A stretch of DNA of 64,000 nucleotides from the IMG/VR virus record IMGVR_UViG_3300027888_000004, positions 1 through 64,000 of that record; one strand, given 5' to 3'. The notes below the pieces were generated by a model. The model did not search any database. It was not told the origin of the DNA and saw nothing but the letters and a program-made list of their open reading frames with translations. The DNA is from a virus. Shown here piece by piece: positions 27,703 through 52,636 of this stretch. The position numbers were made by a program, and so were the translations under genes. Numbering within the stretch: position 1 is the first letter of the stretch; each line of letters starts with the position of its first letter.

Positions 27703-27726
27703 AAAAAAAGGGAGGTCAGACCTCCC
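27703..27726. terminator. Convergent terminator, cassette A
   Basis: Stem GGGAGGT/ACCTCCC with CAG loop (27710-27726); seven A's precede it, giving a U-tract to leftward transcripts. Confidence 0.8.
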
Positions 27727-27749
27727 AATTTCCAGAACACAGCTCTCCT

Positions 27750-28121
27750 TTACTTAAGATCGGACGCTGAAACCTTTTCTTTCCTCACGGTATCTAGCTG
27801 AACGACCTTGATGGGTTTTGGAGTTGTTCTGAACTTCCCTTTCCTCATATCTACCAAATGTTTCCTGACCATCTCGACTTTTGGGTCTTCACTTTCAATG
27901 TAATGAATTATGAATACGCCAGTTGTTGATGTACATTTTGGACAGCAGCGGTGTTCTAGTGCATCATATACTGCGCTACAATTTCCACAAAGTTTTGTAT
28001 CATCAACTCTAAAGATTACGGAGACAAATGTTTCCTTCTTTTCCATTCTATAATCATAGAAACCGGCGAATATGAAGCATCCTAAAGCGAGACCAACAAT
28101 TAATGCTACAAGAATTTCCAT
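27750..28121 (-). CDS. Membrane-anchored zinc-motif protein
   Basis: 123 residues: N-terminal membrane helix (VALIVGLALGCFIFAGF), then CGNCSAVY and CCPKC, one probable zinc site, and a basic tail. Last gene of leftward cassette A. Unknown function. Confidence 0.6.
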   Translation of the reverse strand: MEILVALIVGLALGCFIFAGFYDYRMEKKETFVSVIFRVDDTKLCGNCSAVYDALEHRCCPKCTSTTGVFIIHYIESEDPKVEMVRKHLVDMRKGKFRTTPKPIKVVQLDTVRKEKVSASDLK

Positions 28122-28123
28122 CT

Positions 28124-28363
28124 TTATCGACCCCCTTCGATAATTTGGCTAAGTTCTCCGATGCACTTAACACAGAGACCTGTTTTTCGAAATTTCTCAA
28201 TTTCGATATTTGTTTGGAATTGGTCAAGAGTAATATTACTTGAGCAGGCCAGGCATCGACCCTGTTTAATCAAACCATATGTGTCGATGCCTCTTAGAAA
28301 CATTGCTGACCTAATTGAACTTATGCATCTAACAGTTTTTATTGGATATTTGTTCTCGGTCAT
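28124..28363 (-). CDS. Small zinc-motif protein
   Basis: 79 residues with CLACSS and CVKCIG, two CxxC pairs 27 residues apart. Stop and start overlap as ATGA with the gene upstream. Unknown function. Confidence 0.6.
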   Translation of the reverse strand: MTENKYPIKTVRCISSIRSAMFLRGIDTYGLIKQGRCLACSSNITLDQFQTNIEIEKFRKTGLCVKCIGELSQIIEGGR

Positions 28364-28833
28364 ATTGGGTACTCCCCTGAGTAATCAAGTTCTAATTTTA
28401 ACCCACCTTCTTTAGGGACAATTTCGCCTATTCCTTTCTCAACTTCTTTCATTTGTTTTTTAATTTTTTCCAACTCTTGTTCAAGTTTAGATAAGATCTC
28501 CATCTCAACCATACCAAACATTTGTTTATGTTGTTCATAGAGTTCTGGACTTCGAGCAATTATTTGTATTTGCATCCCTTCAAGAATATCTAATTGGAGT
28601 TTGAGGGCTCTTAAATCTTGAGATACTTTAGATGATTGTTTAGCAATAGTGACACTAGAAGAAATAGCTTTATCGGTACCATCTATTACAACTAACATCT
28701 GATCTTTAGTTCTTATCATTCCCCAAAGCATCACAATTATAAGCGCCGCAAATATTATGTTGAGAGCGGTTTGGGCACAAAGGAAATTGTATGTAATCTT
28801 GAATGGATCCTTTTTGAATTTTTCAGCATGCAT
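28360..28833 (-). CDS. Membrane protein with long coiled coil
   Basis: 157 residues: membrane helix about 20-42 (ALNIIFAALIIVMLWGM) followed by a helical region ending in a strong coiled coil (MEILSKLEQELEKIKKQMKE). Type II or inner-membrane orientation is likely. Spanin-like or signalling roles are possible; none is supported by a motif. Confidence 0.6.
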   Translation of the reverse strand: MHAEKFKKDPFKITYNFLCAQTALNIIFAALIIVMLWGMIRTKDQMLVVIDGTDKAISSSVTIAKQSSKVSQDLRALKLQLDILEGMQIQIIARSPELYEQHKQMFGMVEMEILSKLEQELEKIKKQMKEVEKGIGEIVPKEGGLKLELDYSGEYPI

Positions 28834-28844
28834 TAGTGCCTCCT

Positions 28845-29150
28845 TTATCTAGCTTGCTGCTGTAACTGACGTATTTCTTGAGCGCTTAATGCTCGTATCT
28901 GCATCACGTGTTCAGTTGGAATAGCCAACCAGAGACTTCGGTGATAGAGGTCCCCTCCGGGGTTCTCCATGTAACAAAGAGTATATTTTTCCTCTTCAGA
29001 AATTTTGAAATAGGGAGTATTGATATTCTGTATTACTGTCATAAATTGAGAATCACCTCCTCTTGTATCAGGATTAGGTAACCAGAACTTATAAGTAATA
29101 TTAAACATCAATACTAAACTTATAACAAATCCTAAAAGTTTTTTACCCAC
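28845..29150 (-). CDS. Small exported or membrane-anchored protein
   Basis: 101 residues with an N-terminal signal-anchor (KKLLGFVISLVLMFNITY) and a short polar domain. No clear signal peptidase site. Member of cassette A. Confidence 0.55.
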   Translation of the reverse strand: MGKKLLGFVISLVLMFNITYKFWLPNPDTRGGDSQFMTVIQNINTPYFKISEEEKYTLCYMENPGGDLYHRSLWLAIPTEHVMQIRALSAQEIRQLQQQAR

Positions 29151-29163
29151 GATATCCTCCTCT

Positions 29164-29652
29164 TTAGTTCATTAAATAGAAACCGATGATTTTCTGGTTA
29201 TGGATACTTAGGATTATAAACTCAGCAGCAACTTTTCTGTCTTCTGTTCTCTTTACCAACATCCATTCATGTATCCAAATCAGATTTCCATTATTAAGAG
29301 CAAATGAAACTTTGATTCGGTCTCCTTTGTTGAGATTTACATTACTACTTGATAGAAACGAGATTCCAGTCCTTGATAGGTCCTCGACAATCATACCATG
29401 CTCTTTCCCGAATCCGTCTATCCACGAACCAGGGAGACTCACCTTTTTTCTATACCAAGATCTGGTACAGAAAATTACGTTCCATTTTTCACCACAAGTA
29501 CAACTAGCTCTAAGTTGCTTATTTAGTTTTCCATTTGTGAGTCTCATATGGTATATTCTTGAACATTTAGGACATTCGATTTTAGTACCCCCGGATGGAC
29601 CAACTGGAATAACCTCATATTCCTGATATGTTTCCAGATTTAGACCATTCAC
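29164..29652 (-). CDS. Zinc ribbon plus PilZ domain protein (c-di-GMP receptor-like)
   Basis: 162 residues. Cys pairs CPKC (27-30) and CTC (51-53) form a probable zinc ribbon. The PilZ domain follows, with the two cyclic-di-GMP motifs intact: RSWYR (RxxxR, 64-68) and DLSRTG (DxSxxG, 91-96). PilZ proteins couple c-di-GMP to pili, motility and exopolysaccharide. In a phage this could rewire host surface behaviour. The type IV pilin gene in cassette C (40909-41316) fits that idea. Confidence 0.75.
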   Translation of the reverse strand: MNGLNLETYQEYEVIPVGPSGGTKIECPKCSRIYHMRLTNGKLNKQLRASCTCGEKWNVIFCTRSWYRKKVSLPGSWIDGFGKEHGMIVEDLSRTGISFLSSSNVNLNKGDRIKVSFALNNGNLIWIHEWMLVKRTEDRKVAAEFIILSIHNQKIIGFYLMN

Positions 29653-29673
29653 CTTAACTCCTCCTTGATTTAT

Positions 29674-29832
29674 CTATTCATATCTTGGCAAAACTTCCTC
29701 TGTAAACTCTTTTGCTTTCTTAAAAAGTTCATCTAATGATTCAAAATCTCTTATTTCAAAGGTTTTCATATGTGTTACTTTATTAGTATCAACTATCACC
29801 TCGACTCTTAATTCTCTTAATATCTCTGCCAC
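29674..29832 (-). CDS. Small hypothetical protein (52 aa, GTG start)
   Basis: Frame from GTG 29832 with AAAGGAG about ten bases upstream, reading VAEILRELRVEVIVDTNKV and ending LPRYE. It fills the space between the PilZ gene and the exported-protein gene. Alpha/beta pattern; unknown function. Confidence 0.5.
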   Translation of the reverse strand: MAEILRELRVEVIVDTNKVTHMKTFEIRDFESLDELFKKAKEFTEEVLPRYE

Positions 29833-29857
29833 CCTCAGGTCTCCTTTCAACTTAGGG

Positions 29858-30175
29858 TTATTTAGTTTTACTTAATTCTTCGAATTCTTTCCTATATCTC
29901 ATATAAGTTTGTGGATCGGTTGGCACAAATTTTCCACCCTTAGCTAATCTAGTCTGCGCTATAGGTAAGATAGCTAGGGCGACGGCTAATCCGAAAGTCT
30001 TACTGTTTGCGACCCAGATAACTACTCCAGCTTCTTCGTCTATAACTCGACTTATTGTGGTTTCACCATCATGTAAGCTAATTTCAAAAGTTGTGACAGA
30101 GTCCGGATTAGCATAACACAGCGCAGAGGAAAGAAATAGAATTATTACTGATAAAACTAAAATTTTTGTCTTCAT
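29858..30175 (-). CDS. Small periplasmic protein with signal peptide
   Basis: 105 residues. Signal peptide MKTKILVLSVIILFLSSALC with cleavage likely after YANP-region alanine (about 22). The mature part has a second hydrophobic stretch (FGLAVALAILPIAQT). First gene of cassette A, 78 bp downstream of the promoter element. Confidence 0.6.
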   Translation of the reverse strand: MKTKILVLSVIILFLSSALCYANPDSVTTFEISLHDGETTISRVIDEEAGVVIWVANSKTFGLAVALAILPIAQTRLAKGGKFVPTDPQTYMRYRKEFEELSKTK

Positions 30176-30253
30176 AGGTTACCCCTCCTTTTCAAAAATT
30201 ACTTTTATATTTGGCATTAAAATCACTCACAAACATATTGTTCTGCTTCAGAT

Positions 30254-30304
30254 ATTAATATATATAGAGTACATTTTATTATCCAAATAGAACAAAATAA
30301 CAAT
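30254..30304. promoter_or_regulatory. Divergent promoter region 2
   Basis: Leftward CTATATATATTAAT at 30267-30254 drives cassette A. Rightward AAATAGAACAAAATAACAAT at 30285-30304 precedes the GT4 gene. Confidence 0.6.
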
Positions 30305-30323
30305 ATATACCGAAGGAGCGAAC

Positions 30324-33631: not shown

Positions 33632-33640
33632 GGAGATAAG

Positions 33641-34918: not shown

Positions 34919-34922
34919 AAGT

Positions 34923-37080: not shown

Positions 37081-37092
37081 CGAGGATGGTAA

Positions 37093-38124
37093 ATGAGTAA
37101 AAACTTTTGGTTGTTCAGAACAAATTTGAGGCCATTAGAGTATTACCATCAATATAAGAGTTTAGAGAATTTTGAAAAGAATTGCCACGATTTTTATTTA
37201 TTAATGGGCGTTTGGTTTCTGAGAAATAGAATATATGATAATTTTATAATATGGAGGTTGAATCCGAAGAGACAGAAATTGGAAGATATAGTTTTCGATA
37301 TAGATGGTAAGAAATTTATTCAGAGATGGGTAAATAGTTTTAACGAAGTATTCAAATATGACCCACCAAAAATCTCCTTTTTTCGAGGAGGATTCCCCGA
37401 GTACTGTCAGATTACAAATTCCAACCCGGGTTATCTAGGTAAGAAATTATATCTTGGAGCTGGTAGGAGAGTCTATCCTCAACATGGAGGAAAGTATGAC
37501 TTAGTACTCCTAGAAGACGAAGAAGATCAAAGAACTGACTATAAAACAGCTCCGTTTTATAAAACTGCTAATAGTGAAATATTTAAACCCCTTGATATGC
37601 CAAAAAAATATAACCTATGTTGGATTTGTAATTTTGTACAGATAAGACATAAGGGTCAAGAATTCTTTATAAATGAGGTTTCGAAATCATCTCATCTTAA
37701 GCAATTAGCTATTGTTCATGTAGGAAATAAATCCGAAGATGGCCGAAAGATGTGTAGGAAATATGGAGTTAATAATATTGAATTTGCTGGTTGGGTTGAA
37801 AGACCAATTCTAAATGAGTATTTGAATTCTAGCTATTTCGGTATAGTAACATCAAATGAAGTTGATGGATGTCCAAGAGTTATAACTGAAGTAATGATGT
37901 CCGGCACTCCTCTATTACTAAGAAAACGAACCCGTCTTTTAAGTTTCTATAAGAAATCTGGAATTATAATATTTGATGATAAAAGTTTAAAAGTTAAATT
38001 ACAACATGGTATGTATAAATACGATGAGTATAAGAATCAAGCGAAAAAAAATATTGAGGAGAGAATATCTATGAGTAAAGTTTGTAATATGAACTTAAAT
38101 ATATGGAGTAATTCAAAAAAATGA
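37093..38124 (+). CDS. Glycosyltransferase, GT-B type
   Basis: 343 residues. The C-terminal donor domain shows NIEFAGWVERPILNEYLNSS and DGCPRVITEVMMSGTPLLLR, as in GT4 enzymes. The N-terminal half is divergent. Last gene of the glycan region; its stop codon is within the terminator stem. Confidence 0.65.
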   Translation: MSKNFWLFRTNLRPLEYYHQYKSLENFEKNCHDFYLLMGVWFLRNRIYDNFIIWRLNPKRQKLEDIVFDIDGKKFIQRWVNSFNEVFKYDPPKISFFRGGFPEYCQITNSNPGYLGKKLYLGAGRRVYPQHGGKYDLVLLEDEEDQRTDYKTAPFYKTANSEIFKPLDMPKKYNLCWICNFVQIRHKGQEFFINEVSKSSHLKQLAIVHVGNKSEDGRKMCRKYGVNNIEFAGWVERPILNEYLNSSYFGIVTSNEVDGCPRVITEVMMSGTPLLLRKRTRLLSFYKKSGIIIFDDKSLKVKLQHGMYKYDEYKNQAKKNIEERISMSKVCNMNLNIWSNSKK

Positions 38125-38149
38125 GGTACATATAAATCATGTACCTCAT
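38121..38149. terminator. Convergent terminator, cassette B
   Basis: 11-bp stem ATGAGGTACAT/ATGTACCTCAT with a seven-base loop. Six or seven A's just upstream give a U-tract to leftward RNA. The rightward gene's TGA is part of the stem. Confidence 0.8.
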
Positions 38150-38175
38150 CCGGAGAATGGCGGGGGAGTTAAGTC

Positions 38176-39252
38176 TTATTCGACTCTATCGAGAGCCCAT
38201 TTCCAGCCAGCCTTAATTCTGTCTTTGACATAATTATAGGATCTGACAATTCGACCTGGGTTCTCTTTCTCCTTCTCCTTTTGTTTCATTTGATACTGTT
38301 GAATCTGTTCAAGGGGAATTTCTTTCATTTTTGCTTTCAGTACACTACCCTTAAGTTGCCCCTTGAAATTATCAGAATGGAAGGTAATCTTCTTTTGCCC
38401 TGTCCTCCAAAGGATAGATGCACGTCGGACCTCAACTTGTTCAATTTTTAGAGGGCCTTGTACATAATTCTTTATTGGATGAGGCATTGCTCGATGGTCT
38501 GGATTGCCCATAAAAGCAAAGCAATTCTTAAGACCTTTTTCACGCATTGCATTGACCATTACTTCCATGTCAGTTTCGGTTCCGCCTTTGAAATCTCTAT
38601 AGACGAATGGGCCGCTCATGGAAGTATAGCCATCGCCGATTAGAATACTGTCATACCCCCATTCTTTTGCTCGTTTTGACATAGCCTCTGCTAACTCTTT
38701 ATTGATACCTTCTATGTTAGCGGGTCGGATTGTGACAAATCCATCTTTGTCTTCAATTACTTCGATGCCGTCAAAGTTGGGGTTTTTGAGTGTTTGGATT
38801 CTTCCTACTAGGGCATCCTTGATTTCTTCCAGAACAGATGCTTGCCTTGAGTAATCTTCGACAGCTTGCTTGATGACTTGTGGTCCAGTCTCATATAGAA
38901 CCACTCCAGCTATCCCGCCGAATACTATAGCAAGTACTAGGATCACACCTGCTAGAACTTTGGCTGTATATACTAACGGATTTGTCTTCAACTCCTCTGG
39001 TTCTAGTTCTTTGGCTTTCTTACCAAACATCTTTCCCAAGGTTTCAAAGAAACCTGTTCTTTTGGTGAAGGCCACTTTTTCTTCAATCTCGGCAAGTTTG
39101 GAACTAATTTCAACTAGCTCCTCTTTAGCCTTAAGCAACCTTGCTTTGTCACCATCGGTGGCTACTCCTTGGGTGATCCGATCCTCAATTGCTGCACATT
39201 CTCGCATCAATGATGCTCGGTTTTGACGAAGTTGCTTTTCTTTTTCGTCCAT
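38176..39252 (-). CDS. Membrane protein with N-terminal coiled coil
   Basis: 358 residues from ATG 39252 (GGAGG nine bases upstream). A charged coiled coil (about 1-65), one membrane helix (about 98-124; VLAGVILVLAIVFGGIAGVV), then a soluble domain of about 230 residues ending in a Lys/Glu/Gln-rich segment. The likely outside domain (IGDGYTSMSGPFVYRDF) is unknown to me. Cassette B. Confidence 0.6.
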   Translation of the reverse strand: MDEKEKQLRQNRASLMRECAAIEDRITQGVATDGDKARLLKAKEELVEISSKLAEIEEKVAFTKRTGFFETLGKMFGKKAKELEPEELKTNPLVYTAKVLAGVILVLAIVFGGIAGVVLYETGPQVIKQAVEDYSRQASVLEEIKDALVGRIQTLKNPNFDGIEVIEDKDGFVTIRPANIEGINKELAEAMSKRAKEWGYDSILIGDGYTSMSGPFVYRDFKGGTETDMEVMVNAMREKGLKNCFAFMGNPDHRAMPHPIKNYVQGPLKIEQVEVRRASILWRTGQKKITFHSDNFKGQLKGSVLKAKMKEIPLEQIQQYQMKQKEKEKENPGRIVRSYNYVKDRIKAGWKWALDRVE

Positions 39253-39285
39253 AAGTAACATCCTCCTTTTTTCTTCGTTCGGTAA

Positions 39286-39474
39286 TTATACTATTTCTTC
39301 CCTTTCAATTTCCGAACTTCCATAACCTTTAATGATTTTGAAACCATATGCGGGAAATGCTACTAATCCCACAAGACCTCCTGCCGCCATTCCAAAGAAG
39401 AAGCCTATTACTGCTAAGGCTATCAAAATTAGAACGAACCCGACCACCGTCATTACGTCGATCGCCAATTGCAT
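39286..39474 (-). CDS. Small membrane protein (62 aa)
   Basis: Two hydrophobic segments (VVGFVLILIALAVIGFFFG and AAGGLVGLVAFPAYGF) and a charged C-terminus. GGAGG precedes the start. Unknown function; holin-like size but no specific support. Confidence 0.6.
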   Translation of the reverse strand: MQLAIDVMTVVGFVLILIALAVIGFFFGMAAGGLVGLVAFPAYGFKIIKGYGSSEIEREEIV

Positions 39475-39529: not shown

Positions 39530-39608
39530 ATTAATATATATAGACACAGATGATTAACCAAGAATCATGTGAGATAAAATTTTTGGATATGAGAACATAT
39601 ATTAAAAA
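39530..39608. promoter_or_regulatory. Divergent promoter region 3
   Basis: Leftward CTATATATATTAAT at 39543-39530 for cassette B. Rightward ATATGAGAACATATATTAAA (39587-39606) upstream of queC, with AAGGGAG following. Confidence 0.55.
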
Positions 39609-39623
39609 TGAAGGGAGAAACGA

Positions 39624-40223: not shown

Positions 40224-40248
40224 ACAAAAAAATAAATCGAAGAAAAAC

Positions 40249-40278
40249 AAAAAGGCATTAGAGTTAATATGCCTTTTT
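40249..40278. terminator. Bidirectional terminator, cassette C
   Basis: Perfect stem AAAAAGGCAT/ATGCCTTTTT with ten-base loop; its A/T arms give U-tracts both ways. Confidence 0.9.
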
Positions 40279-40315
40279 GACTATCTGGTTCATTGGAAGA
40301 TTTCAACAGATAGTT

Positions 40316-40876
40316 TTAGTAGAATTCTCGCCAACGATTATTTTTCCACATAAGTTGACGATCAGCCTGGATGCTTGTATTTTTGGTTTTGGCAACATTT
40401 GCTGCCATCAGACCGATTGAATCATGACGATGGTGTGTGAAAGTATGACCAAGTTCATGAGCAGTGACAATACCACTACCTCTCATGGTCGACCTAATCA
40501 GAATATAGCGACCAGCACATTTTGCCATGAATGGTCTATTTGGAAGGTTCAGATAGGCGATTGCAACATCAAAAGGATATTTCTTCTCGAAGCGTTTGGC
40601 CTTATGCTTAAGTTGGACCATTAACCTTGATCCCACTTTTTTGTTCCAATGAACCTTCTTGACCGCCACGATTTCGAGATCCATATAGACTTGACCTTCC
40701 ATGATTCTACTTGCATTTGAAATCGCTTGGTAAATCCGATCTTGTTTAAATACACCATCAGTCAGTACCAGAACCTTTAAGGTTCGGACATTGAAGTTCT
40801 CAGCGAGCACTGGACTTGCTAAACTAAGAACTAACACTATAGCCAATAGCCACCTTAACATTGTTTTTTGTTTCAT
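40316..40876 (-). CDS. Secreted zinc metalloprotease (zincin)
   Basis: 186 residues. Signal peptide MLRWLLAIVLVLSLASPVLA with cleavage after ALA (about 25). The zinc site is AHELGHTFTHHRHD: HExxH at 140-144 and further His at 148, 149 and 151. GLMAAN (about 155) could be a Met-turn, as in metzincins, though spacing of the third ligand is not the standard HExxHxxGxxH. Likely acts in the periplasm or outside the cell. Confidence 0.75.
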   Translation of the reverse strand: MKQKTMLRWLLAIVLVLSLASPVLAENFNVRTLKVLVLTDGVFKQDRIYQAISNASRIMEGQVYMDLEIVAVKKVHWNKKVGSRLMVQLKHKAKRFEKKYPFDVAIAYLNLPNRPFMAKCAGRYILIRSTMRGSGIVTAHELGHTFTHHRHDSIGLMAANVAKTKNTSIQADRQLMWKNNRWREFY

Positions 40877-40908
40877 GATATTATCCTCCTTTTAGGTCAT
40901 GGCCTGAC

Positions 40909-41316
40909 CTATTTCTTTTTCTTTTTTGCAGGTTTACAACTTCCTTTACCTTTCTCAGCTGTTACATTACCAGTTGATTGATCGTATAGGAAAGAATATC
41001 CTTGACCATCAATATCAGCAGTTGCACAATTACCACTATCTACCCAATTGAGTTCTAGACCAGAAAGACTTATACGATTCTTTAAGTCTGAAGTTTCTGG
41101 GTAGATTGGAGGGCTGTTGCCCTTTACAGCACTCTCGATATATCCGAAAGATGCAGCGGTGGTTATTGTTACAATTATTTGGTTTACCTTTCCTTCTCTA
41201 ACTTCGTCTCTTAAATCAAGATATGCAGGAAAGGCTATAGCTGCTAACATGCCAAGGAGTGCAATCACTAAAACGATCTCGAGAAATGTGAAACCATTTT
41301 TGTTTCTTATATTCAT
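40909..41316 (-). CDS. Type IV pilin-like protein
   Basis: 135 residues with a textbook class III signal: short basic leader MNIRNKN, then G|FTFLE (cleavage after G8, Glu at +5) and the hydrophobic alpha-1 helix IVLVIALLGMLAAIAFPAYL. Two cysteines (NCATAD and GSCKPA) could form the C-terminal disulphide loop of a pilin or pseudopilin. It ends in KKKKK. It could enter host pili or the secretion pseudopilus and block receptor-dependent superinfection. First gene of cassette C. Confidence 0.85.
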   Translation of the reverse strand: MNIRNKNGFTFLEIVLVIALLGMLAAIAFPAYLDLRDEVREGKVNQIIVTITTAASFGYIESAVKGNSPPIYPETSDLKNRISLSGLELNWVDSGNCATADIDGQGYSFLYDQSTGNVTAEKGKGSCKPAKKKKK

Positions 41317-41363
41317 CTTAATTACCTCCTTTCAAAAACACCAAACATTTCGCCCTATCATTA

Positions 41364-41408
41364 ATTAATATATATAGTAGTGAATCTTTATATATGGTGG
41401 CAAAAATG
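41364..41408. promoter_or_regulatory. Divergent promoter region 4
   Basis: Leftward CTATATATATTAAT at 41377-41364. Rightward TATATATGGTGGCAAAAATG (41389-41408) overlaps the start codon of the next gene, so the rightward leader is very short. Confidence 0.55.
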
Positions 41409-42598: not shown

Positions 42599-42599
42599 T

Positions 42600-42959: not shown

Positions 42960-42961
42960 TA

Positions 42962-43249: not shown

Positions 43250-43277
43250 AACAAAAAAAATAATTGGGTTTAAAAAG

Positions 43278-43317
43278 AAAAAGGGTCAAATCCCCTTTTT
43301 CCCCTGGTGGTTCCAGG
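43278..43317. terminator. Convergent terminator pair, cassette D
   Basis: AAAAAGGG/CCCTTTTT stem (43278-43300) with U-tracts both ways, plus a second small hairpin CCTGG/CCAGG (43303-43317). Confidence 0.85.
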
Positions 43318-43318
43318 A

Positions 43319-43489
43319 TTAGATTTTTAGAGTCTCTGCGACTTCTATGACCCAGTCAGGTAGTTCATCCCTGTTGATTATCTGTCCATCAAGGTTCCAC
43401 TTGACTGTGTATCCTCCAATATTACCCTTGAGGTAGTCGCCGCAGAAATCTAGAGAAATGGATTCTCCGCTCTCAAATACTGCTTGCAC
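43319..43489 (-). CDS. Small hypothetical protein (56 aa, GTG start)
   Basis: GTG 43489 has AAGGAGG eight bases upstream and overlaps the zinc-finger gene by 17 bp. Contains LDFCGDYLKGNIGGYTVKWN. A longer frame upstream would lie wholly inside the neighbour. Unknown function. Confidence 0.5.
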   Translation of the reverse strand: MQAVFESGESISLDFCGDYLKGNIGGYTVKWNLDGQIINRDELPDWVIEVAETLKI

Positions 43490-43685
43490 GACTCTCACCT
43501 CCTTTGAATTTGTCAAAGGCCTTTTCAAAGAGGAAGTCGTCACACTTCTTACAGGAGCATACATGATCACGAATGAGTTGAGAAACTTCGTCGTCGAGTT
43601 CTCCGTTGAGATAACTCTCCATCTCAACTTTGATAAGTTGGCAACCAGCGTTTTGATCTAATTCTCCATCTAGTTCAAAAACCAT
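43473..43685 (-). CDS. Anti-sigma-factor-like zinc finger (zf-HC2/ZAS) protein
   Basis: 70 residues: C15, then ESYLNGELDDEVSQLIRDH with H41, and HVCSCKKC giving the HxxxCxxC (H41, C45, C48) of the ZAS domain. Bacterial ZAS proteins bind and silence ECF sigma factors. Here the domain stands alone, without a membrane anchor, so it could act as a small phage anti-sigma factor. Start at ATG 43685 (GGAGG six bases upstream). Confidence 0.65.
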   Translation of the reverse strand: MVFELDGELDQNAGCQLIKVEMESYLNGELDDEVSQLIRDHVCSCKKCDDFLFEKAFDKFKGGESRASSI

Positions 43686-43695
43686 GATAACCTCC

Positions 43696-43911
43696 TTATT
43701 TTTGATTTCCGTAATGTTTCTTGGTACTTTCAATTTGCTGCCAATAACCAGCACCCTCTAGTGTCATTTTGAATTCTTCTTCTCTCTTCCTTCTCTTTCT
43801 TTTAGATTCGAATGGGTCACTATTTCTCCACATCCAAACTAAGTAGTAGAGGATTGAGAGTGCTAGAAACGATACCACGATAATATCAAGCAAACTCATT
43901 CCTTTAAACAT
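43696..43911 (-). CDS. Small single-pass membrane protein
   Basis: 71 residues from ATG 43911 (GGAGG eight bases upstream): membrane helix LLDIIVVSFLALSILYYLVW, then a very basic KRKRRKREEE stretch (positive-inside, C-terminus in the cytoplasm). Unknown function. Confidence 0.6.
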   Translation of the reverse strand: MFKGMSLLDIIVVSFLALSILYYLVWMWRNSDPFESKRKRRKREEEFKMTLEGAGYWQQIESTKKHYGNQK

Positions 43912-43925
43912 GGCCGTGTCCTCCT

Positions 43926-44183
43926 TCACTTTCTGTAATAAGATTTGATTCTTTGTTGACGTTCTTGTTCTTGTATTTCTCTTTCTATGACTTCTGCCTT
44001 TCTCTTCTTCTCATGTTTCCGGTCAAGAATGAAGAACTTTACCATTATGATCCAAGCGGTAATCATTATCAAAAGCGCAGGAATCTTCGTAAAGAGACTT
44101 GTTGACTGTGAGTGAGTATATATTGCTATTATCATTATTAGTGAATATAATATGCTCCACCTAAGAAATTTTTCTGATTTCAT
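43926..44183 (-). CDS. Small two-helix membrane protein
   Basis: 85 residues with hydrophobic segments at about 9-24 and 33-52 and a highly charged C-terminus (DRKHEKKRKAEVIEREIQEQ). Unknown function. Confidence 0.6.
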   Translation of the reverse strand: MKSEKFLRWSILYSLIMIIAIYTHSQSTSLFTKIPALLIMITAWIIMVKFFILDRKHEKKRKAEVIEREIQEQERQQRIKSYYRK

Positions 44184-44201
44184 AGCCCTAAACCCTCCTT
44201 G

Positions 44202-44606
44202 TTAGTAATTAGAATTGTCCTCGACTTCTACTTTTCTAAGTTTGGCGATAGCAAGGACAATCTCTTTGAAAGCAATTAATTGACCCTCTCCCCAGTATTT
44301 GTGCTTTATAGTTATTGTGAAGAATTCTCCCTTTACTCTATGGTAAGTCCAGCAGTCATTCAACTCTTCATCACCGTACTCATTGATATCCATAAAAGCA
44401 TAAGTGGGAGAAAGTAAGGATACTATTGCTCTCAAAGTATTTGTAGTTACATAAATCTGATATGGCTGATTTATATATTTCTTAAATATGAAGGTAGCTA
44501 TTTCTCCTCGGCGATCATACTTATCCTGAATCTCATGAAAAACTACCTTCACCAAATCAGCTAGAGATGATGATAAAGAAACCTTAATCCCTTGTGGTAG
44601 TCCCAT
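44202..44606 (-). CDS. Hypothetical protein
   Basis: 134 residues, soluble, not recognised. Start shares one base with the previous stop (TAATG). Cassette D. Confidence 0.55.
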   Translation of the reverse strand: MGLPQGIKVSLSSSLADLVKVVFHEIQDKYDRRGEIATFIFKKYINQPYQIYVTTNTLRAIVSLLSPTYAFMDINEYGDEELNDCWTYHRVKGEFFTITIKHKYWGEGQLIAFKEIVLAIAKLRKVEVEDNSNY

Positions 44607-44830
44607 TATTTACCCCTCCAGTTTGGTGGAATTTTGCCTACTGGAATTACGCTTGAACAGACATGGCATTTAACCTGGTCATCTCCAAGATGTGTGAAAC
44701 CCCAATAGTTACACTCTAATTTTTGAGCATCAACTATTGATAAACAACATGGGCATTGAACCTCATTGAGATCAGTATGATTTCTGGAATGAAATGTCTG
44801 TGTGGTTCCATAAGTATCATACCTATCCAT
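44606..44830 (-). CDS. Small zinc-ribbon protein
   Basis: 74 residues with CPCCLS and CHVCSS, two CxxC pairs about 30 residues apart. First gene of cassette D, about 40 bp from the promoter element. Unknown function. Confidence 0.6.
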   Translation of the reverse strand: MDRYDTYGTTQTFHSRNHTDLNEVQCPCCLSIVDAQKLECNYWGFTHLGDDQVKCHVCSSVIPVGKIPPNWRGK

Positions 44831-44870
44831 TATCTATCCTCCTCTAAAAGTATAAAATCATTACCCGATA

Positions 44871-44917
44871 ATTAATATATATAGACACTTTTTTTATATA
44901 TGGTAACAAAATAAAAA
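44871..44917. promoter_or_regulatory. Divergent promoter region 5
   Basis: Leftward CTATATATATTAAT at 44884-44871. Rightward ATATGGTAACAAAATAAAAA at 44898-44917 with TATATA as -10; TTAATA at 44872-44877, 17 bp before it, could serve as a weak -35. Confidence 0.65.
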
Positions 44918-44935
44918 GGAAAGGAGTCACAGAAA

Positions 44936-47300: not shown

Positions 47301-47312
47301 TACCTATCTCTA
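47284..47312. terminator. Hairpin at convergent junction, cassette E
   Basis: Ten-bp stem TAGAGATAGG/CCTATCTCTA with nine-base loop, overlapping the rightward stop. No T-tract on either side. Confidence 0.55.
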
Positions 47313-47326
47313 CGGCGGGACAGAGT

Positions 47327-47956
47327 TTAAATATCTGTCAACTTTTTTGCAATATCTTCTGTTAAGACTGGAGTAGAAACTGTTATTGGTTTTTTTCCCA
47401 CTCCTTTGCACCTTTTGCACCTAATTACCTCCTTGATTTTTCCTGTATTTACTGGTCTTGATTTATTACCAGATCCTAAGCAAGACTTGCATTTTATTAC
47501 TCTTTTTCTTTTGATAGTTTTTCTGTACTCGTATATTCCTTTACCCTCACAGGTTCGACAAGTCTTTGTACCAACCTTACCTGTGCCTTCACACCTCTTA
47601 CATTTACTTCTGGCTATACCTGTGCCATCACATAATTTACATGGAAGCACAAGGATATCATAATGAAAATCGGGTCTGAATCCTTTTCCCCTACAATTCG
47701 GGCAAGGATTATTTATGGGGATTCTAATGTAATATCTAGATTTTTCAGCTAGTTGATCCTCGATTATTGCTGCTATTAGTGTATTTTTTGCAGTGATAAT
47801 CTTCTCTGTCCCGTCCTTGTCTCCTTTTAGATCTTCGAGTAAATTGACAAAGGATGCTATAATGATTTTCTCATCAAGTTCATCAATTTTATTAACGAGA
47901 TCTAATGCCCATATAGCATTGTCTATCATATCTTGCTCAATACATGATTTAATCAT
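47327..47956 (-). CDS. DnaJ-type zinc-finger protein without J domain
   Basis: 209 residues. N-terminal helical part (about 1-75), then six CxxC(x)GxG-like units: CPNCRGKG, CKLCDGTG, CKRCEGTG, CRTCEGKG, CKSCLGSG and CKRCKGVG, forming about three zinc sites. No HPD-containing J domain. May bind unfolded proteins or act as a DnaK decoy. Confidence 0.8.
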   Translation of the reverse strand: MIKSCIEQDMIDNAIWALDLVNKIDELDEKIIIASFVNLLEDLKGDKDGTEKIITAKNTLIAAIIEDQLAEKSRYYIRIPINNPCPNCRGKGFRPDFHYDILVLPCKLCDGTGIARSKCKRCEGTGKVGTKTCRTCEGKGIYEYRKTIKRKRVIKCKSCLGSGNKSRPVNTGKIKEVIRCKRCKGVGKKPITVSTPVLTEDIAKKLTDI

Positions 47957-47997
47957 GACCCCCTCCCCCCTCTATTCCATATTGTTACCTCCCATTC

Positions 47998-48020
47998 AAA
48001 AAAAGTTGCCCGAAGGCAAC
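47998..48020 (-). terminator. Rho-independent terminator
   Basis: Stem GTTGCC/GGCAAC with a CGAA loop, followed leftward by seven U's. Ends the 70-residue membrane-protein gene inside cassette E. Confidence 0.85.
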
Positions 48021-48036
48021 ATACTATTCTGGAGCT

Positions 48037-48249
48037 CTAGAATATATAATCTAGAGTCTTCTTTCTCCCTTTATAGAATTTATAAATTGACCAACCAACC
48101 CAGATTACAGGTATGATATATACTGCGCGTCTGAAATGGTTTAGGAGGAGAAGGTCTATCATACATAGTATCCATATTACTATGCTGAGCAAAGCAATTG
48201 CACGTATTAGCGGATTAAATATTGTAAGTAATCTGAAAAATCTTCTCAT
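48037..48249 (-). CDS. Small membrane protein
   Basis: 70 residues, two hydrophobic segments (about 15-37 and 42-57) and basic ends. First gene of cassette E. Unknown function. Confidence 0.6.
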   Translation of the reverse strand: MRRFFRLLTIFNPLIRAIALLSIVIWILCMIDLLLLNHFRRAVYIIPVIWVGWSIYKFYKGRKKTLDYIF

Positions 48250-48302
48250 TTTACTAACCCCCTTTCATAATTTTTAAAAACACAAACCCACCGCCTTCAA
48301 AT

Positions 48303-48373
48303 ATTTATATATATAGAAAAATTCTCAATTCTAAATGGGTATCTATTTTTATAGAAGGGAACAAAATAAAAAT
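48303..48373. promoter_or_regulatory. Divergent promoter region 6 (variant)
   Basis: Leftward element reads CTATATATATAAAT, the only variant; it contains TATAAATA, the T4 late-promoter octamer, when extended one base. Rightward GAAGGGAACAAAATAAAAAT at 48354-48373, TATAGA as -10. Confidence 0.6.
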
Positions 48374-48395
48374 TGATTTGTAATGGAGTATGTTT

Positions 48396-51300
48396 ATGTT
48401 TAGCATTAAGAACTCTTTTGCTGACTGTATGTCTTGCCCTCTCCTTGATGCCCCATCATGTATTCTTGAAACTAATTGTTCAGATAACCTAAAGGATATT
48501 GAAGTTGTATTTGTATCCGAAAATCCCGGAAAAAATGAGGTCAAGAAAAAGAGACCTTTAATAGGAAGAGCGGGAAGAACATTCAGGAAACCATTTGATT
48601 TATATATTAGAGATAAATTCAAGTGGTTATTAACAAATTGTGTTTTATGTTGTACGTTATTACCAGACGGTAAGACAGGTAACCCAACGCCAGAAATTAT
48701 TGAGAGATGTAAAGAGAATGCTTTTAATATAATCGAAGCGTGTAGTCCGAAATTGATTGTGGCTATGGGTGCAAGTCCAATGTCTGCTTTTGGTTTTGCA
48801 AAAACAGGTATAACTGATTTGAGAGGCCAAGTATTTAAATGGAGAGATTATGATGTTCTCCTAACTGTTCATCCATCTTTTGTAAATAGAAATCAAAGTT
48901 ATAAAGGTAAGTTTGAAAGGGATATACAAACTGCTGCAGTAATGCTTGGTGCAGAACTTGAAGTGAAAGCAGAGAAAGGGATGAATGCTGTAGGAACAGG
49001 AAAATATCGTTATAAAATTCCAGAGGAATTCTATAGTCCAGACTATAGACTTGTTGATGTCCAATTTTTACATAAGACAAATGAAGTTATACATATCTTT
49101 AGAGATAAGGATAATAATAAAATTTATCATAAGGAAAATGATGATTATTTCTGCTATAGAGTTCCAGAAGGTATTGAGAATAAACATCTTGTAGAATATG
49201 ATAAATTGGAGATAATCAAAGTTCCATATAAACAAAAATCAGCACTAGATCCAGAAAGAACATACGAAGGTGATATAAGAATATCAGTAAAGTATGCCCA
49301 AGATTACTATCACTTTAGTAAGGGCGAACCATCAGAAAAAGAATTAAATATAATGTTCTTGGATATTGAGACATACAGTAAAACAAAGGAATTTCCAAAT
49401 GTTGAAGATGCGGATCATCCGATTTGTCTTATAACATACTATTATCATGGAAAATACATAACATATGTAGTCGATAACAAGATTCTATTAAATGATAGAA
49501 ATGCTCCAGATATTATAACAACTAAAGAGGATCCTATTCATATTTTTAAATCTGAGCGTGAAATGATCCTTAAATTTATAAAAGATTTGAGAACATTGGA
49601 ACCAGACTTTCTCGTGGGTTGGAATGTAATTGGGTTTGACCTTTATTATATTTATAACAGATGCAGAAAACTAAGAATAAAGCAAGAATCACTCTCAAAA
49701 TTTAATGAAGTATCATTCTCAATTGATGAGAAAAGACAATATTGTGAGATTGCTGGGTTAGTAGTTCTTGATCTGCTTAGATTATATAGAAGCTTCACAT
49801 TTACACAGAAAGAAAATTATCGTCTTGGAACAATCGCTCAGGAGGAGTTGGGAGAAGAGAAAACAGATGTTGGTGAGAACTTCTCGGAGAAATATGAGAA
49901 AGATATTAATGGAGCAATTGACTATAACATAAAAGACGTTGAATTGATTCTACGAATAGATAATAAACTCCGACTTATAGTTTTAGAAAATGAAATTAGA
50001 AAAATTGGTAGCTCTAGTTTTGCTGGAGCATTTAGTAATCTTGGGAAACTTGACAGCTTAGTGATTTCATTTTTGAAAGATAAAGGTTTTGCTTCAAGGA
50101 ATGCAAATGTCCATAAAGTAAAAGAAGCTTCAATTCCTGGAGCATTTGTCAAGGAACCGAGAACAGGTATACATGAGTATATTGTTGATTTTGATTTCAC
50201 ATCCCTATATCCAAGTCTAATCTTAACCTATAACATTGGGATAAACACATTTGTTGCAAAGTTTAAAGATCATACGTTAGGATATGACTTTGTATATCAA
50301 CTGGATAATCTCCCGGAAGAGTTCACTATAATCTATGATCCTGGTTTTCTTAATAAAGAAATGACAGTCAAGAAAGAGGATTTTATTAAGAAGGTCAAAG
50401 ATGCAAACCTTACATATACAATAAATGGATGTTTCTATAAACCACATGATAAAGAGGTTTCCGTTTATTCGGAGGTTTTGGACCATTTACTGATTTCTAG
50501 AAAAGAATATAAAGACAAAATGTTTGATGCCAAACAAGCAGGGGAAGATCATTTACATGATATGTACTATGGTCGTCAATTAGTTTACAAAGTTTTAGCT
50601 AACGCTTTATATGGAATTCTTACAAACCATTTCTTTAGATTCTACCATGACGATCTCGGAAGTAGTATCACTCTAAGTGGTCAAGAAGCTTTGAAAACCT
50701 CAATCATTCATGGAAATAATTATGTTGATATGATTAAAAAGAAAGCTTCTAAATACGAAGCTCCTGAACCACTGACAAAGCAAGAAATGTATGGTGATGT
50801 TACAAGAGATACTGAGTTTATCATTACGGGAGATACTGATAGTTTATTTGTATCATTTGATGATATTGTAGATAAAAATAAATCAGAAGATGAGTTAATG
50901 AAGCAAATTGAAAGTTGGTGTGATGAAATTCAATTATTTTTGAACAATAAGATCATTATGCCATTAGTTACTAATCATAATGTTCCTCTAGAAAGAAATC
51001 GTCTTGAGTTAAAGAATGAGCTAGTTATTAAGAGAGGTTTGTTTTTAGCTAAGAAACATTATGCAATTTATGTAACTTCGCAAGAGGGAAGGAAAACAGA
51101 TGAAATAGTAAATATGGGTATTGCAACGAAACGAAGTGATTATCCGAGCTATACAAAACAATCTCTAAGTGATTTATTGGATCTAATTCTGAAGTCAGAA
51201 GAAGTATCATTAAAGAAAATTATGGATTTTATTCACTCAAGAAAAACTTCATTTATTCATAAGATAAGAGCAGGTGATAAAAGAGTCGCTCGCCCTTCTG

Positions 51301-51653
51301 CATTTACGAGGAGATTAGATCATTATAAAAAAGTACCTCCTGGAGTAATCTCAATGTTAAATTGGAATGAATTGGAGTATAAGATTTTTGATGTTGGTTC
51401 AAAAGGTTATCTATTCAAATTAAATGGCATAGACCTCATGAAAGCTCCTCCAGACGTAGCTGAAAAATATAACCAAAAATTCTTAGCAAATGGTAGGAAA
51501 TTGGACTATATATCTCTTCCAGATGAGGAAATATCTCTACCGTCATATTATGTAGTTGATGTTAGTGCAATGTTAAAATTTGCATGGGAGGATAGATTTA
51601 GTTTAATATTAGAACCAGTAATGAGTCCGAAGCAGGAACTAATGACAATCTAG
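48396..51653 (+). CDS. Uracil-DNA glycosylase (family 4-like) fused to family B DNA polymerase
   Basis: 1085 residues from ATG 48396 (GGAG seven bases upstream; an ATG at 48390 is too close). Numbering is from 48390. UDG domain, about 10-190: Fe-S-type cysteines CMSCPLL (13, 16), later NCVLCC (84-88), motif A-like SENPGKNE (43-50) with GRAG, and TVHPS (159-163). Polymerase: ExoI FLDIET (about 323), ExoII GWNVIGFDLYYIY, ExoIII YNIKDVEL, motif A DFTSLYPS (602-609), motif B KVLANALYG and motif C TGDTDS (about 814). Likely the replicative polymerase. All exonuclease and polymerase carboxylates seem present. Confidence 0.88.
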   Translation: MFSIKNSFADCMSCPLLDAPSCILETNCSDNLKDIEVVFVSENPGKNEVKKKRPLIGRAGRTFRKPFDLYIRDKFKWLLTNCVLCCTLLPDGKTGNPTPEIIERCKENAFNIIEACSPKLIVAMGASPMSAFGFAKTGITDLRGQVFKWRDYDVLLTVHPSFVNRNQSYKGKFERDIQTAAVMLGAELEVKAEKGMNAVGTGKYRYKIPEEFYSPDYRLVDVQFLHKTNEVIHIFRDKDNNKIYHKENDDYFCYRVPEGIENKHLVEYDKLEIIKVPYKQKSALDPERTYEGDIRISVKYAQDYYHFSKGEPSEKELNIMFLDIETYSKTKEFPNVEDADHPICLITYYYHGKYITYVVDNKILLNDRNAPDIITTKEDPIHIFKSEREMILKFIKDLRTLEPDFLVGWNVIGFDLYYIYNRCRKLRIKQESLSKFNEVSFSIDEKRQYCEIAGLVVLDLLRLYRSFTFTQKENYRLGTIAQEELGEEKTDVGENFSEKYEKDINGAIDYNIKDVELILRIDNKLRLIVLENEIRKIGSSSFAGAFSNLGKLDSLVISFLKDKGFASRNANVHKVKEASIPGAFVKEPRTGIHEYIVDFDFTSLYPSLILTYNIGINTFVAKFKDHTLGYDFVYQLDNLPEEFTIIYDPGFLNKEMTVKKEDFIKKVKDANLTYTINGCFYKPHDKEVSVYSEVLDHLLISRKEYKDKMFDAKQAGEDHLHDMYYGRQLVYKVLANALYGILTNHFFRFYHDDLGSSITLSGQEALKTSIIHGNNYVDMIKKKASKYEAPEPLTKQEMYGDVTRDTEFIITGDTDSLFVSFDDIVDKNKSEDELMKQIESWCDEIQLFLNNKIIMPLVTNHNVPLERNRLELKNELVIKRGLFLAKKHYAIYVTSQEGRKTDEIVNMGIATKRSDYPSYTKQSLSDLLDLILKSEEVSLKKIMDFIHSRKTSFIHKIRAGDKRVARPSAFTRRLDHYKKVPPGVISMLNWNELEYKIFDVGSKGYLFKLNGIDLMKAPPDVAEKYNQKFLANGRKLDYISLPDEEISLPSYYVVDVSAMLKFAWEDRFSLILEPVMSPKQELMTI

Positions 51654-51660
51654 AAAAAAA

Positions 51661-51727
51661 AGGGAGTGGGCATCGTCACTCCCTATACTGAGTTGGGGGA
51701 AGGTAATTAAAATGCCTAACTCAGTAT
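51661..51727. terminator. Two tandem hairpins at convergent junction, cassette F
   Basis: AGGGAGTG/CACTCCCT (51661-51684), followed leftward by eight U's, then a 10-bp inverted repeat ATACTGAGTT/AACTCAGTAT (51685-51694 and 51718-51727). Confidence 0.75.
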
Positions 51728-51738
51728 TTCGATAATCA

Positions 51739-51981
51739 CTATTTTAGAAATTGTGGGATAAAGGCTATCACAATAATCGCACCTGCTAAATATCCACCAA
51801 TTCCTATAAAGGTTCTGGTAAATGTTTTCCATGTAAAACCCTCTTTTATATCTGCTGCAAACAAACCAATTGCTAGTGCTGATATAATTAAGCTAGTAAT
51901 TGCTAAACCAGAAGTTTTACATGATAATAGAGAAATCATTCCAATCAAACCTGTTAAAAAACATAAGAGATTTCTTTTCAT
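51739..51981 (-). CDS. Small membrane protein, paralogue group (1)
   Basis: 80 residues, three hydrophobic segments. LLCFLTGLIGM and FIGIGGYLAGAIIVIAF match the start and end of the next two proteins loosely. Last gene of cassette F. Confidence 0.6.
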   Translation of the reverse strand: MKRNLLCFLTGLIGMISLLSCKTSGLAITSLIISALAIGLFAADIKEGFTWKTFTRTFIGIGGYLAGAIIVIAFIPQFLK

Positions 51982-51990
51982 GCTCTTCTC

Positions 51991-52206
51991 CTATATTACT
52001 ACGTAAGCAATAAGGTATCCGCCCATGAAGGATATGAACTCAACACCTTTACTTTTTACACCGATAAAAATACCTATCATAAGGAGAATAATCATTATTG
52101 GAACTTGAGAAACTCCAAACTTTGACCTGGCTATATTAATAATCAGAAAAATAATTACTCCAGCAGCAAACGATAGTAAATTTCTAAAAATTGTTTTTAT
52201 ATCCAT
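51991..52206 (-). CDS. Small membrane protein, paralogue group (2)
   Basis: 71 residues, three hydrophobic segments. FRNLLSFAAGVIIFLI ... FISFMGGYLIAYVVI aligns along its length with the protein of the next gene, indicating tandem duplication. Confidence 0.6.
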   Translation of the reverse strand: MDIKTIFRNLLSFAAGVIIFLIINIARSKFGVSQVPIMIILLMIGIFIGVKSKGVEFISFMGGYLIAYVVI

Positions 52207-52224
52207 TTATCTTCTCCTGAAGTA

Positions 52225-52261
52225 ATGGAATGGAGAGGATATCAATCCCTCTCCATTCCAT
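52225..52261. terminator. Long perfect hairpin between paralogues
   Basis: 14-bp stem ATGGAATGGAGAGG/CCTCTCCATTCCAT with a nine-base loop. No U-tract, so attenuation or mRNA protection is as likely as termination. Confidence 0.55.
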
Positions 52262-52267
52262 CTGGTT

Positions 52268-52531
52268 TTACAACATGACGAAGATGTAGGTAAGAACGAA
52301 ACCACTTACGGTTGAAAAGACCTCAGCGGTCTTATTCATTCTTGCTACAAGGACCCCTGTTCCTATGAGTATTACAGGACCAAAGAGTTCCGGAAACGGA
52401 ACACCTTTCATTCCCATGTAGACAATCACTAGAAACACTGATACGCCAAGTGCAAAAGCAATAGCGTTCCTGAGAAGACCGCCTATGAAAATGAAAATGC
52501 TTTTGAAAAGTTTCTTTAGAAAATTCTTCAT
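52268..52531 (-). CDS. Small membrane protein, paralogue group (3)
   Basis: 87 residues, basic start then three hydrophobic segments. LRNAIAFALGVSVFLVI ... FSTVSGFVLTYIFVML is the counterpart of the preceding paralogue. First gene of cassette F; GGAGG before ATG. Confidence 0.6.
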   Translation of the reverse strand: MKNFLKKLFKSIFIFIGGLLRNAIAFALGVSVFLVIVYMGMKGVPFPELFGPVILIGTGVLVARMNKTAEVFSTVSGFVLTYIFVML

Positions 52532-52572
52532 GATTATCCTCCTTTAAAAGACATAGCCAATTTCTCTTTAAA

Positions 52573-52636
52573 ATTAATATATATAGCAACTTTAGATATG
52601 AGAAAAAGAACTTGAGATTGAGAACAAAATAAAAAA
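52573..52636. promoter_or_regulatory. Divergent promoter region 7
   Basis: Leftward CTATATATATTAAT at 52586-52573. Rightward GATTGAGAACAAAATAAAAA at 52616-52635, followed by AAGGAG. Confidence 0.6.

Follow-up and report, generated by a model that had tools for sequence, protein, structure and literature searches.

In a 64,000-nucleotide (nt) stretch of viral DNA (IMG/VR record IMGVR_UViG_3300027888_000004, positions 1 to 64,000; hereafter the window), six short groups of genes run leftward between rightward genes, which raises the question of what drives these cassettes and how they came to lie there. A sequence-only reading had described them as a modular system for adding host-takeover genes under a standard promoter and terminator. 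All six cassettes are real, with 2-7 genes apiece, and in the divergent gap of each (six of six) a 14-nt element, CTATATATATTAAT, was found on the minus strand, five copies being exact and that of cassette 5 having one mismatch. This element is probably the early promoter of the phage, firing leftward from divergent gaps opposite a late-type rightward element, with cassettes that swap their cargo. From base 15 onward the whole window lies, letter for letter, within a 277,131-base record (G004, IMGVR_UViG_3300001782_000005; G004 position = window position p+147047), which is probably a complete genome because its first 94 bases recur at its end. A second record, G001, was identical in the stretches compared. 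A DNA search of the region against an annotated phage collection returned no match, and comparisons were therefore made with metagenomic relatives and with phage AR9.

The early-type element and its late-type partner

The element ends 41-79 nt upstream of the first ATG of each cassette. Across G004 (277 kb) there were 13 exact copies, 12 of them on the minus strand, and 16 copies with at most one mismatch, 15 of them leftward, while 20 simulated order-3 Markov genomes yielded no exact copy and a mean of 1.05 at the looser threshold. Exact copies were also present in the relatives G002, G003, G005 and G006. The transcription start was predicted at the base 6 nt beyond the element's thirteenth base (the twentieth from its first), and a purine occupied this position in 40 of 40 copies in G002-G006 (at most one mismatch) and in 76 of 88 copies in six large records. 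The mapped early (virion-polymerase) consensus of AR9 is AAATATATATTAT-(6N)-G (PMC5312081); CTATATATATTAAT has ten consecutive positions and the spacing in common with it and differs at three of thirteen positions. Annotated plus-strand early sites of AR9 lie in the same register as the copies described here (its minus-strand sites, whose extraction was shifted by a few bases, were left out of this comparison). According to a review, one AT-rich motif of ~10 nt, an extended element with its centre near -10, can be recognised before the presumed early operons of each polymerase-encoding jumbo phage (PMC7598289), and an extended AT-rich element is likewise conserved here before operons presumed to be early.

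In the six large records, 84 of the 88 copies were intergenic and 56 lay within 250 nt of a called same-strand start. By type of gap, 36 copies were divergent (a class comprising ~9% of intergenic bases), 33 co-directional, 13 running against both neighbours and 2 convergent. Strand bias was evident in five of these records (15/16, 14/16, 12/12, 13/17 and 10/10). A DNA signal other than a promoter, serving replication, packaging or segregation for instance and falling in gaps by chance, could show such a bias toward one strand, as some of these signals do, and could leave 13 copies in gaps where both neighbours run the opposite way. This explanation is very improbable given the intergenic placement, the nearness to same-strand starts, the purine at the predicted start and the presence of only two copies in convergent gaps. 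In the large record G008 (L133-L143) the exact element is often extended to CTATATATATTAATATACAT, perhaps reflecting drifted promoter specificity.

The element is not special to the cassettes, and on this point the sequence-only reading gave way. A further exact copy heads a leftward run with helicase, clamp loader, primase and ribonucleotide reductase genes, which opens with two CxxC-rich genes. Other units behind CTATATATATTAAT in G004 include a run with DNA ligase and one RNA polymerase set, two PilZ proteins with two lipoproteins, and signal-peptide proteins (lipoproteins and signal peptides being read by eye). Because it heads these units as well, the element would be a general early promoter and no mark of the cassettes alone. 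A generic sigma70 scan showed no clear excess over shuffles (59 versus 53.6, standard deviation 7.6; 62 versus 53.8, standard deviation 7.9), and nothing therefore points to ordinary host promoters.

A second element, GAACAAA, was enriched upstream of genes with a free gap (27 of 124 upstream intervals versus 2 on the opposite strand). The genes that it precedes include that of the terminase and several very large ones close to the tail sheath gene, and in the window it also stands before several rightward operons. The late promoter of AR9 is AACA-(6N)-TA/G (PMC5312081), which the AACA core of GAACAAA recalls in sequence. Leftward early-type and rightward late-type (or variant) elements were paired in five of the six divergent gaps, the exception being 41317-41393. 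Since the leftward element matches the AR9 early promoter in sequence and register, while the terminase gene and rightward operons carry GAACAAA, the cassettes are most likely transcribed early and point away from operons of a late or middle class. The sole exact plus-strand copy of CTATATATATTAAT in G004 (59491) stands back to back with the GAACAAA of the terminase gene, with no called gene behind it, and possibly serves a small RNA or a very short gene.

T4-type late promoters carry a TATAAATA element before structural genes. By analogy, CTATATATATTAAT might be a late or middle promoter, and the cassettes might make envelope and lysis proteins late in infection. Consistent with this, the element is AT-rich, many cassette products are membrane or secreted proteins, as lysis proteins are, the family B DNA polymerase matches T4-type phages, and the baseplate and sheath match phage tail families. 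This alternative is nevertheless unlikely, as sequence and start register follow the AR9 early promoters, the element heads replication and RNA polymerase runs while the terminase gene instead carries GAACAAA, and no cassette product had a Pfam match to a holin or endolysin. The element here also differs from TATAAATA, for which no separate scan was made.

At the convergent ends, a scanner called minus-strand T-tailed hairpins in four of six gaps, and folding revealed a long-loop hairpin in a fifth. No hairpin was found at the end of cassette 5, although one lies between its two genes (48020-48005). The two scanned stretches contained 25 terminator-like sites, compared with ~13 in shuffles. 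The standard promoter and terminator of the sequence-only reading are thus borne out, the element at six of six cassettes and hairpin ends at five of six.

Cassette contents and their turnover among relatives

Cassette products form a class distinct from those of the flanking rightward genes, in agreement with the earlier description. Under one fixed hydropathy rule, a membrane or signal segment was present in 13 of 21 cassette products, compared with 0 of 20 interleaved rightward products (Fisher 1.6e-5; P values for this content table and for the divergence and slot tables below are optimistic because orthologous sites are not independent). With products having at least two CxxC motifs included, the counts were 16 of 21 and 1 of 20, while zinc alone was not significant (4/21 versus 1/20, p 0.34). 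Pfam domains over the curated cut-off were PilZ in 29164 (27 bits, cut-off 22.5; a zinc-ribbon-like N-terminus was read by eye), N_methyl in 40909, which carries the prepilin methylation motif (26.7 bits, cut-off 21.2), and the DnaJ cysteine-rich domain (CXXCXGXG) in 47327 (E 6.2e-10). Gene 43473 had a zf-HC2 match below cut-off, and 40316-40876 encodes an HELGH zincin-like motif, read by eye, with no Pfam peptidase match. A scan of bacterial genomes yielded no close relatives of the prepilin-like protein, and the close-relative scan for the secreted zincin-like protein found only records of this phage and G002. AlphaFold models of two cassette proteins, built from two-sequence alignments, were poor (mean predicted local distance difference test scores of 37 and 42).

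Genes were called with a home-made program, whose training set was G004 for the slot tables and, for the large-record counts, the genome being analysed. This caller misses small genes, including several zinc genes of slot 5 in relatives and four cassette genes here (27750, 28124, 48037 and 52268). Genes 27750 and 28124 were kept on the strength of tblastn relatives in G002, and 52268 on that of a tblastn relative in G003; 48037, with no match in the four relatives searched, was retained on its open frame and position alone. The doubtful open reading frame 43319-43627, which overlaps its neighbour, was left out of the content counts.

In G002 (~75% DNA identity) all six cassettes are present in the same place and orientation, and variation is gene by gene within them. 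No match was found there to 29164 (PilZ), 40909 (prepilin-like), 48037 or 52268; cassette 1 of G002 contains a secreted protein of 164 amino acids, and in cassette 3 two other small genes take the place of the prepilin-like gene. The median of identity times coverage to G002 was 0.45 for cassette genes (n=21) versus 0.73 for rightward genes (n=28; p 8e-7), and among genes of at most 210 amino acids it was 0.45 (n=20) versus 0.71 (n=12; p 1e-4). Cassette genes were not seen on the main strand in any relative, every cassette-protein match lying opposite to the neighbouring backbone genes.

Relatives were collected by polymerase alignment (32 loci, 24 at 47% identity or above) and with a QueC query (13). 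At each slot, a divergent early-type element with at most one mismatch was sought within 450 nt upstream of the backbone gene, in 26 relative records from 25 contigs (L069 and L093 being one contig). The slot table excludes open reading frame 43319, G004, L062 (on the contig of L090), L070 (99.99% identical to L065), seven matches at contig ends and the distant polymerase loci L071-L078, and L064, L066-L068, L085, L086, L089 and L091 were replaced by their whole records. Backbone gene order was well kept. The element was present at slot 2 (QueC) in 8 of 13 relatives, at slot 4 (gene 44936) in 9 of 15 and at slot 5 (DNA polymerase) in 13 of 19, compared with 1 of 5 at the flank genes of slots 1 and 3 each and 3 of 21 at slot 6 (QueE-like gene). 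Altogether, 35 of 78 slot flank genes had it, versus 5 of 126 control backbone genes (Fisher 9.4e-13), and with up to two mismatches the counts were 41/78 and 7/126. An earlier table of 24 records (without L008 and L009) gave 35/75 for slots and 5/125 for controls, and 28/68 versus 4/98 once the close relatives G002 and G003 were removed. The eight distant polymerase loci had no copy.

These distributions bear on the proposal that the cassettes were inserted as units. They are compatible with it at slot 6 and, on few relatives, at slots 1 and 3. Slots 2, 4 and 5, present in much of the family, are no recent plug-ins, and the six cassettes do not make up one uniform plug-in set. Six independent recent insertions of ready-made promoter-gene-terminator units, that is, classical morons, would explain the absence of the element at slots 1, 3 and 6 in 4/5, 4/5 and 18/21 relatives and the polymerase and QueE-like matches that stand 48-100 nt apart in L060, L061, L063 and L065. 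Such a history is quite unlikely for the whole set, being already disfavoured for the three slots in which most relatives have the divergent element; furthermore, the DnaJ-like zinc protein of slot 5 was matched in 11 searched records, and the promoter is the phage's own.

Cargo at the shared slots varied. At slot 5, relatives other than the 11 with the DnaJ-like protein hold different genes or nothing. Slot 2 contains different small proteins, with 13 of 27 called cargo genes encoding membrane proteins; G007, in which the QueC match is weak (27%), supplies 6 of these 13, and without it the count is 7 of 18. The baseline in five relatives was 9-15% of genes of at most 210 amino acids. Leftward runs at slot 4 comprised, among others, 1 (G007), 3 (G002, G008), 6 (G010), 36 (G009) and 69 (G011) genes.

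Feature positions and the phage backbone

Table 1. Cassettes, promoter-like elements, terminator-like hairpins and RNA polymerase genes; positions are those of the window except where G004 is named.
Feature	Position	Strand	Remarks
Cassette 1	27750..30175	-	seven genes: signal-peptide protein 29858; 58-amino-acid protein 29674; PilZ 29164; 28845; membrane 28360; CxxC 28124; membrane with CxxC pairs 27750
Cassette 2	38176..39474	-	two genes: membrane proteins of 62 and 361 amino acids
Cassette 3	40316..41316	-	two genes: prepilin-like 40909-41316; secreted zincin-like 40316-40876
Cassette 4	43319..44830	-	5-6 genes: CxxC 44606; 44202; membrane 43926, 43696; zf-HC2-like 43473; doubtful open reading frame 43319
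Cassette 5	47327..48249	-	two genes: 70-amino-acid membrane protein 48037; DnaJ-like zinc protein 47327
Cassette 6	51739..52531	-	three small membrane proteins
Early-type element, cassette 1	30254..30267	-	exact CTATATATATTAAT; predicted start near 30248
Early-type element, cassette 2	39530..39543	-	exact; beside QueC
Early-type element, cassette 3	41364..41377	-	exact
Early-type element, cassette 4	44871..44884	-	exact; beside gene 44936
Early-type element, cassette 5	48303..48316	-	one mismatch; beside DNA polymerase
Early-type element, cassette 6	52573..52586	-	exact; beside QueE-like gene
Further early-type element	15459..15472	-	exact; heads leftward replication-gene run
Late-type element GAACAAAATAA	30290..30300	+	before rightward gene 30324
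Variant late-type element GAACATATATTAAAA	39593..39607	+	before QueC
Variant late-type element TAACAAAATAA	44904..44914	+	before 44936
Late-type element GAACAAAATAA	48359..48369	+	before DNA polymerase
Late-type element GAACAAAATAA	52622..52632	+	before QueE-like gene
Terminator-like hairpin, cassette 1 end	27710..27726	-	T tail; scanner
Terminator-like hairpin, cassette 2 end	38119..38151	-	scanner
Long-loop T-tailed hairpin, cassette 3 end	40248..40279	-	folding
Terminator-like hairpin, cassette 4 end	43278..43299	-	scanner
Terminator-like hairpin, cassette 6 end	51661..51684	-	scanner
Beta genes	G004 81080-84076 and 113878-117972		profile matches
Beta-prime genes	G004 84302-87010 and 118309-121314		profile matches

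According to the home-made caller, G004 has 25 strand runs, the short ones lying mostly in or just beyond the part of the window seen, and a second group of them lying at 31-44 kb. G004 also encodes a terminase, a tail sheath and baseplate proteins, the last two matching phage tail families. The large GAACAAA genes had been considered as tail-fibre genes by size and place; of three large genes scanned, two with GAACAAA, none had a functional match, and the assignment was dropped. The DNA polymerase contains exonuclease and polymerase domains in one frame of 1087 amino acids and is only distantly like T4-type enzymes (25.8-28.3% among the 15 best records listed). Its gene (48390-51653) also encodes an N-terminal uracil-DNA glycosylase domain (residues 36-173, 54 bits versus a cut-off of 24.3), fused to the family B polymerase in a stretch conserved across aligned relatives.

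Two multisubunit RNA polymerase gene sets are present in G004, with two beta and two beta-prime genes. The beta proteins of 998 and 1364 amino acids each matched Rpb2 domains 3, 6 and 7 in one frame (domain 7 of the larger below cut-off), and the 902-amino-acid beta-prime matched Rpb1 domains 1-5 in one frame (domain 1 below cut-off); the beta-prime of 1001 amino acids was checked for Rpb1 domain 2 only. Of nine relatives searched, six had two beta genes and the remaining three are contigs of 66-124 kb; none were found in the partial records G002, G003 and G006. Cobetia phage Carin-5 and Yersinia phage YerA41 are among the best-listed phage matches of the larger beta. Sigma70 region 2 had no match in G004, and scans of the window against Rfam (gathering threshold) and for tRNA genes gave no hits.

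The QueC gene (39624-40223) is backed by Pfam (102 bits), and the name of the QueE-like gene (52651-53322) is based on a radical-SAM match and reading by eye. Together these backbone genes suggest 7-deazaguanine DNA modification, for which the gene at 55676-57082, judged by its position and having no Pfam match at E 0.01, may encode the inserting enzyme. A GroES-like co-chaperonin gene (53337-53600; Cpn10, 51 bits) adjoins the QueE-like gene here and in relatives.

Two non-coding repeat arrays with a period near 36 nt occur at G004 219312-220830 (window coordinates 72265-73783) and 75563-76465, the latter far outside the window. Their unit, TGGTTCACT, alternates with a TGG-TTT-CT-like half unit and variable stretches of ~9 nt. 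The array at 219312-220830 adjoins a 387-amino-acid protein with a Transposase_20 (IS110-type) match. Both arrays resemble TIGR-Tas arrays, which encode 36-nt guide RNAs with two spacers (PMC12045711). A repeated 10-mer considered as a third promoter class proved to belong to these two arrays.

Known systems, proposed mechanism and implications

The closest known systems are AR9-type early units and morons, and the cassettes can be described as moron-like cargo under a jumbo-phage early promoter. Early units of AR9 and phiKZ-related phages likewise have an AT-rich extended element, a start 6 nt downstream (predicted here) and dispersal as small units (PMC5312081, PMC7598289), and two multisubunit RNA polymerases are common to phiKZ-related phages and G004. 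AR9 also has divergent early/late pairs, g120/g121 and g152/g153, in which g120 and g152 were found transcribed at 5 minutes, whereas transcripts of g121 and g153 were first seen by 20 minutes (PMC5312081), and its early-promoter units contain DnaJ-like zinc, zinc-finger and membrane genes. Over 249,999 of its 251,042 bases, AR9 has 34 promoter features, of which 33 are labelled early and 27 lie on one strand. The beta, beta-prime and family B DNA polymerase genes of phiKZ-related phages are split. The present phage differs in that beta is unsplit in both polymerase sets and the DNA polymerase is unsplit, and slot-by-slot conservation with changing cargo is not described for AR9 in the parts of the report drawn on (PMC5312081). 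Because both beta genes are unsplit, this phage is, by its gene structure, not phiKZ-like in the strict sense.

Morons are usually described as being expressed in lysogens. Like the cassettes, they have their own promoter (six of six here, predicted) and their own terminator (five of six), are sometimes inverted and are thought to come and go (PMC2147016); unlike morons, the cassettes use a phage-wide early element, several of their sites are old and reused, and leftward runs can comprise tens of genes. In archaeal viruses, early anti-defence regulons also place diverse small accessory genes under one highly conserved early regulatory sequence, and the shared early promoter was used there to find anti-defence genes (PMC11065993). 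Those regulons differ in having TATA/BRE promoters, mostly single genes and many positions near genome termini, and their anti-defence function was tested, whereas for the cassettes such a function is putative. Metagenomic Caudovirales with deep-branching multisubunit RNA polymerases (PMC7481178) are, as described, also tailed phages with beta and beta-prime, three of the contigs exceeding 200 kb; the word 'promoter' is absent from the main text of that report.

Under the favoured reading of CTATATATATTAAT as an early promoter, an early polymerase, probably injected with the DNA as in AR9 and phiKZ, would read the element at once, and the leftward cassette messages would end at the hairpins. 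The other polymerase would read the rightward operons later, from the opposite side of the same gap. Because the promoters face apart and a cassette usually ends in a terminator, its cargo would be free to change, with genes gained, lost or diverging and the rightward operon left unaffected. The docking points at QueC, gene 44936 and DNA polymerase have stayed in place across the family while their cargo changed, and the other three slots seem to have been added in this lineage. The products, mostly small membrane, secreted, zinc and signalling proteins, would take effect at the host envelope or on host regulation within the first minutes, and a role for the cassettes in host takeover is plausible. 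The element, its register and placement, the conserved positions and the turnover of cargo were observed directly, whereas the early timing, the polymerase involved and the roles of the products are inferred.

Several points weigh against this reading. Of the 88 copies, only 56 have a called same-strand start no more than 250 nt away, and 13 occupy gaps with both neighbours opposed. G008 is an exception among the large records, with a continuation that is often ATACAT, a start purine in 7 of 17 copies and strands split 10 versus 7. Since beta is unsplit in both sets, unlike in phiKZ and AR9, the promoter rules of those phages are applied by analogy. In profile comparisons, both beta sets had one and the same non-virion subunit of AR9 as their top-scoring match. 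GAACAAA, whose candidate late role is based on the terminase gene, does not strictly follow the spacing of the AR9 late promoter, AACA-(6N)-TA/G. GAACAAA also occurs inside replication and polymerase leftward runs, for example ahead of the ligase gene that lies between one early-type element and beta-prime, so that these genes may not depend on the early-type element alone. Finally, slot 4 cargo in relatives was like background in membrane content (19/136), with no excess. The bias toward envelope proteins, pronounced in this phage and hinted at in slot 2, is therefore not general. In AR9, genes with both promoter types form a continuously expressed class, among them those for replication proteins and most non-virion polymerase subunits (PMC5312081). 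An attempt to assign the two polymerase sets to virion and non-virion types by profile against AR9 did not separate them.

Early genes are a frequent seat of phage counter-defence and host-control proteins, and uncultured jumbo phages have no transcriptome by which to locate them. Here a 14-nt element is nearly letter-identical across phages with roughly half-identical DNA polymerases, which makes the units that follow it candidates for early genes. Slots that stay fixed while their cargo changes show sites of arrival and turnover, so that gain of host-control genes becomes testable by slot comparison; a limited search of open-licence literature titles returned none on conserved early-promoter slots with changing cargo in such phages. 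The chances appear about even that a jumbo-phage family with unsplit-beta polymerases keeps ancestral docking sites, in which an early and a late promoter stand back to back next to a constant backbone gene (QueC, gene 44936 or DNA polymerase) and through which 1 to ~70 early cargo genes are exchanged with promoter and neighbour unchanged, and gains new sites by copying the early element. If so, the element would allow the early counter-host genes of uncultured giant phages to be catalogued systematically, with the PilZ proteins, the prepilin-like protein, the secreted zincin-like protein and many small membrane proteins as candidates.

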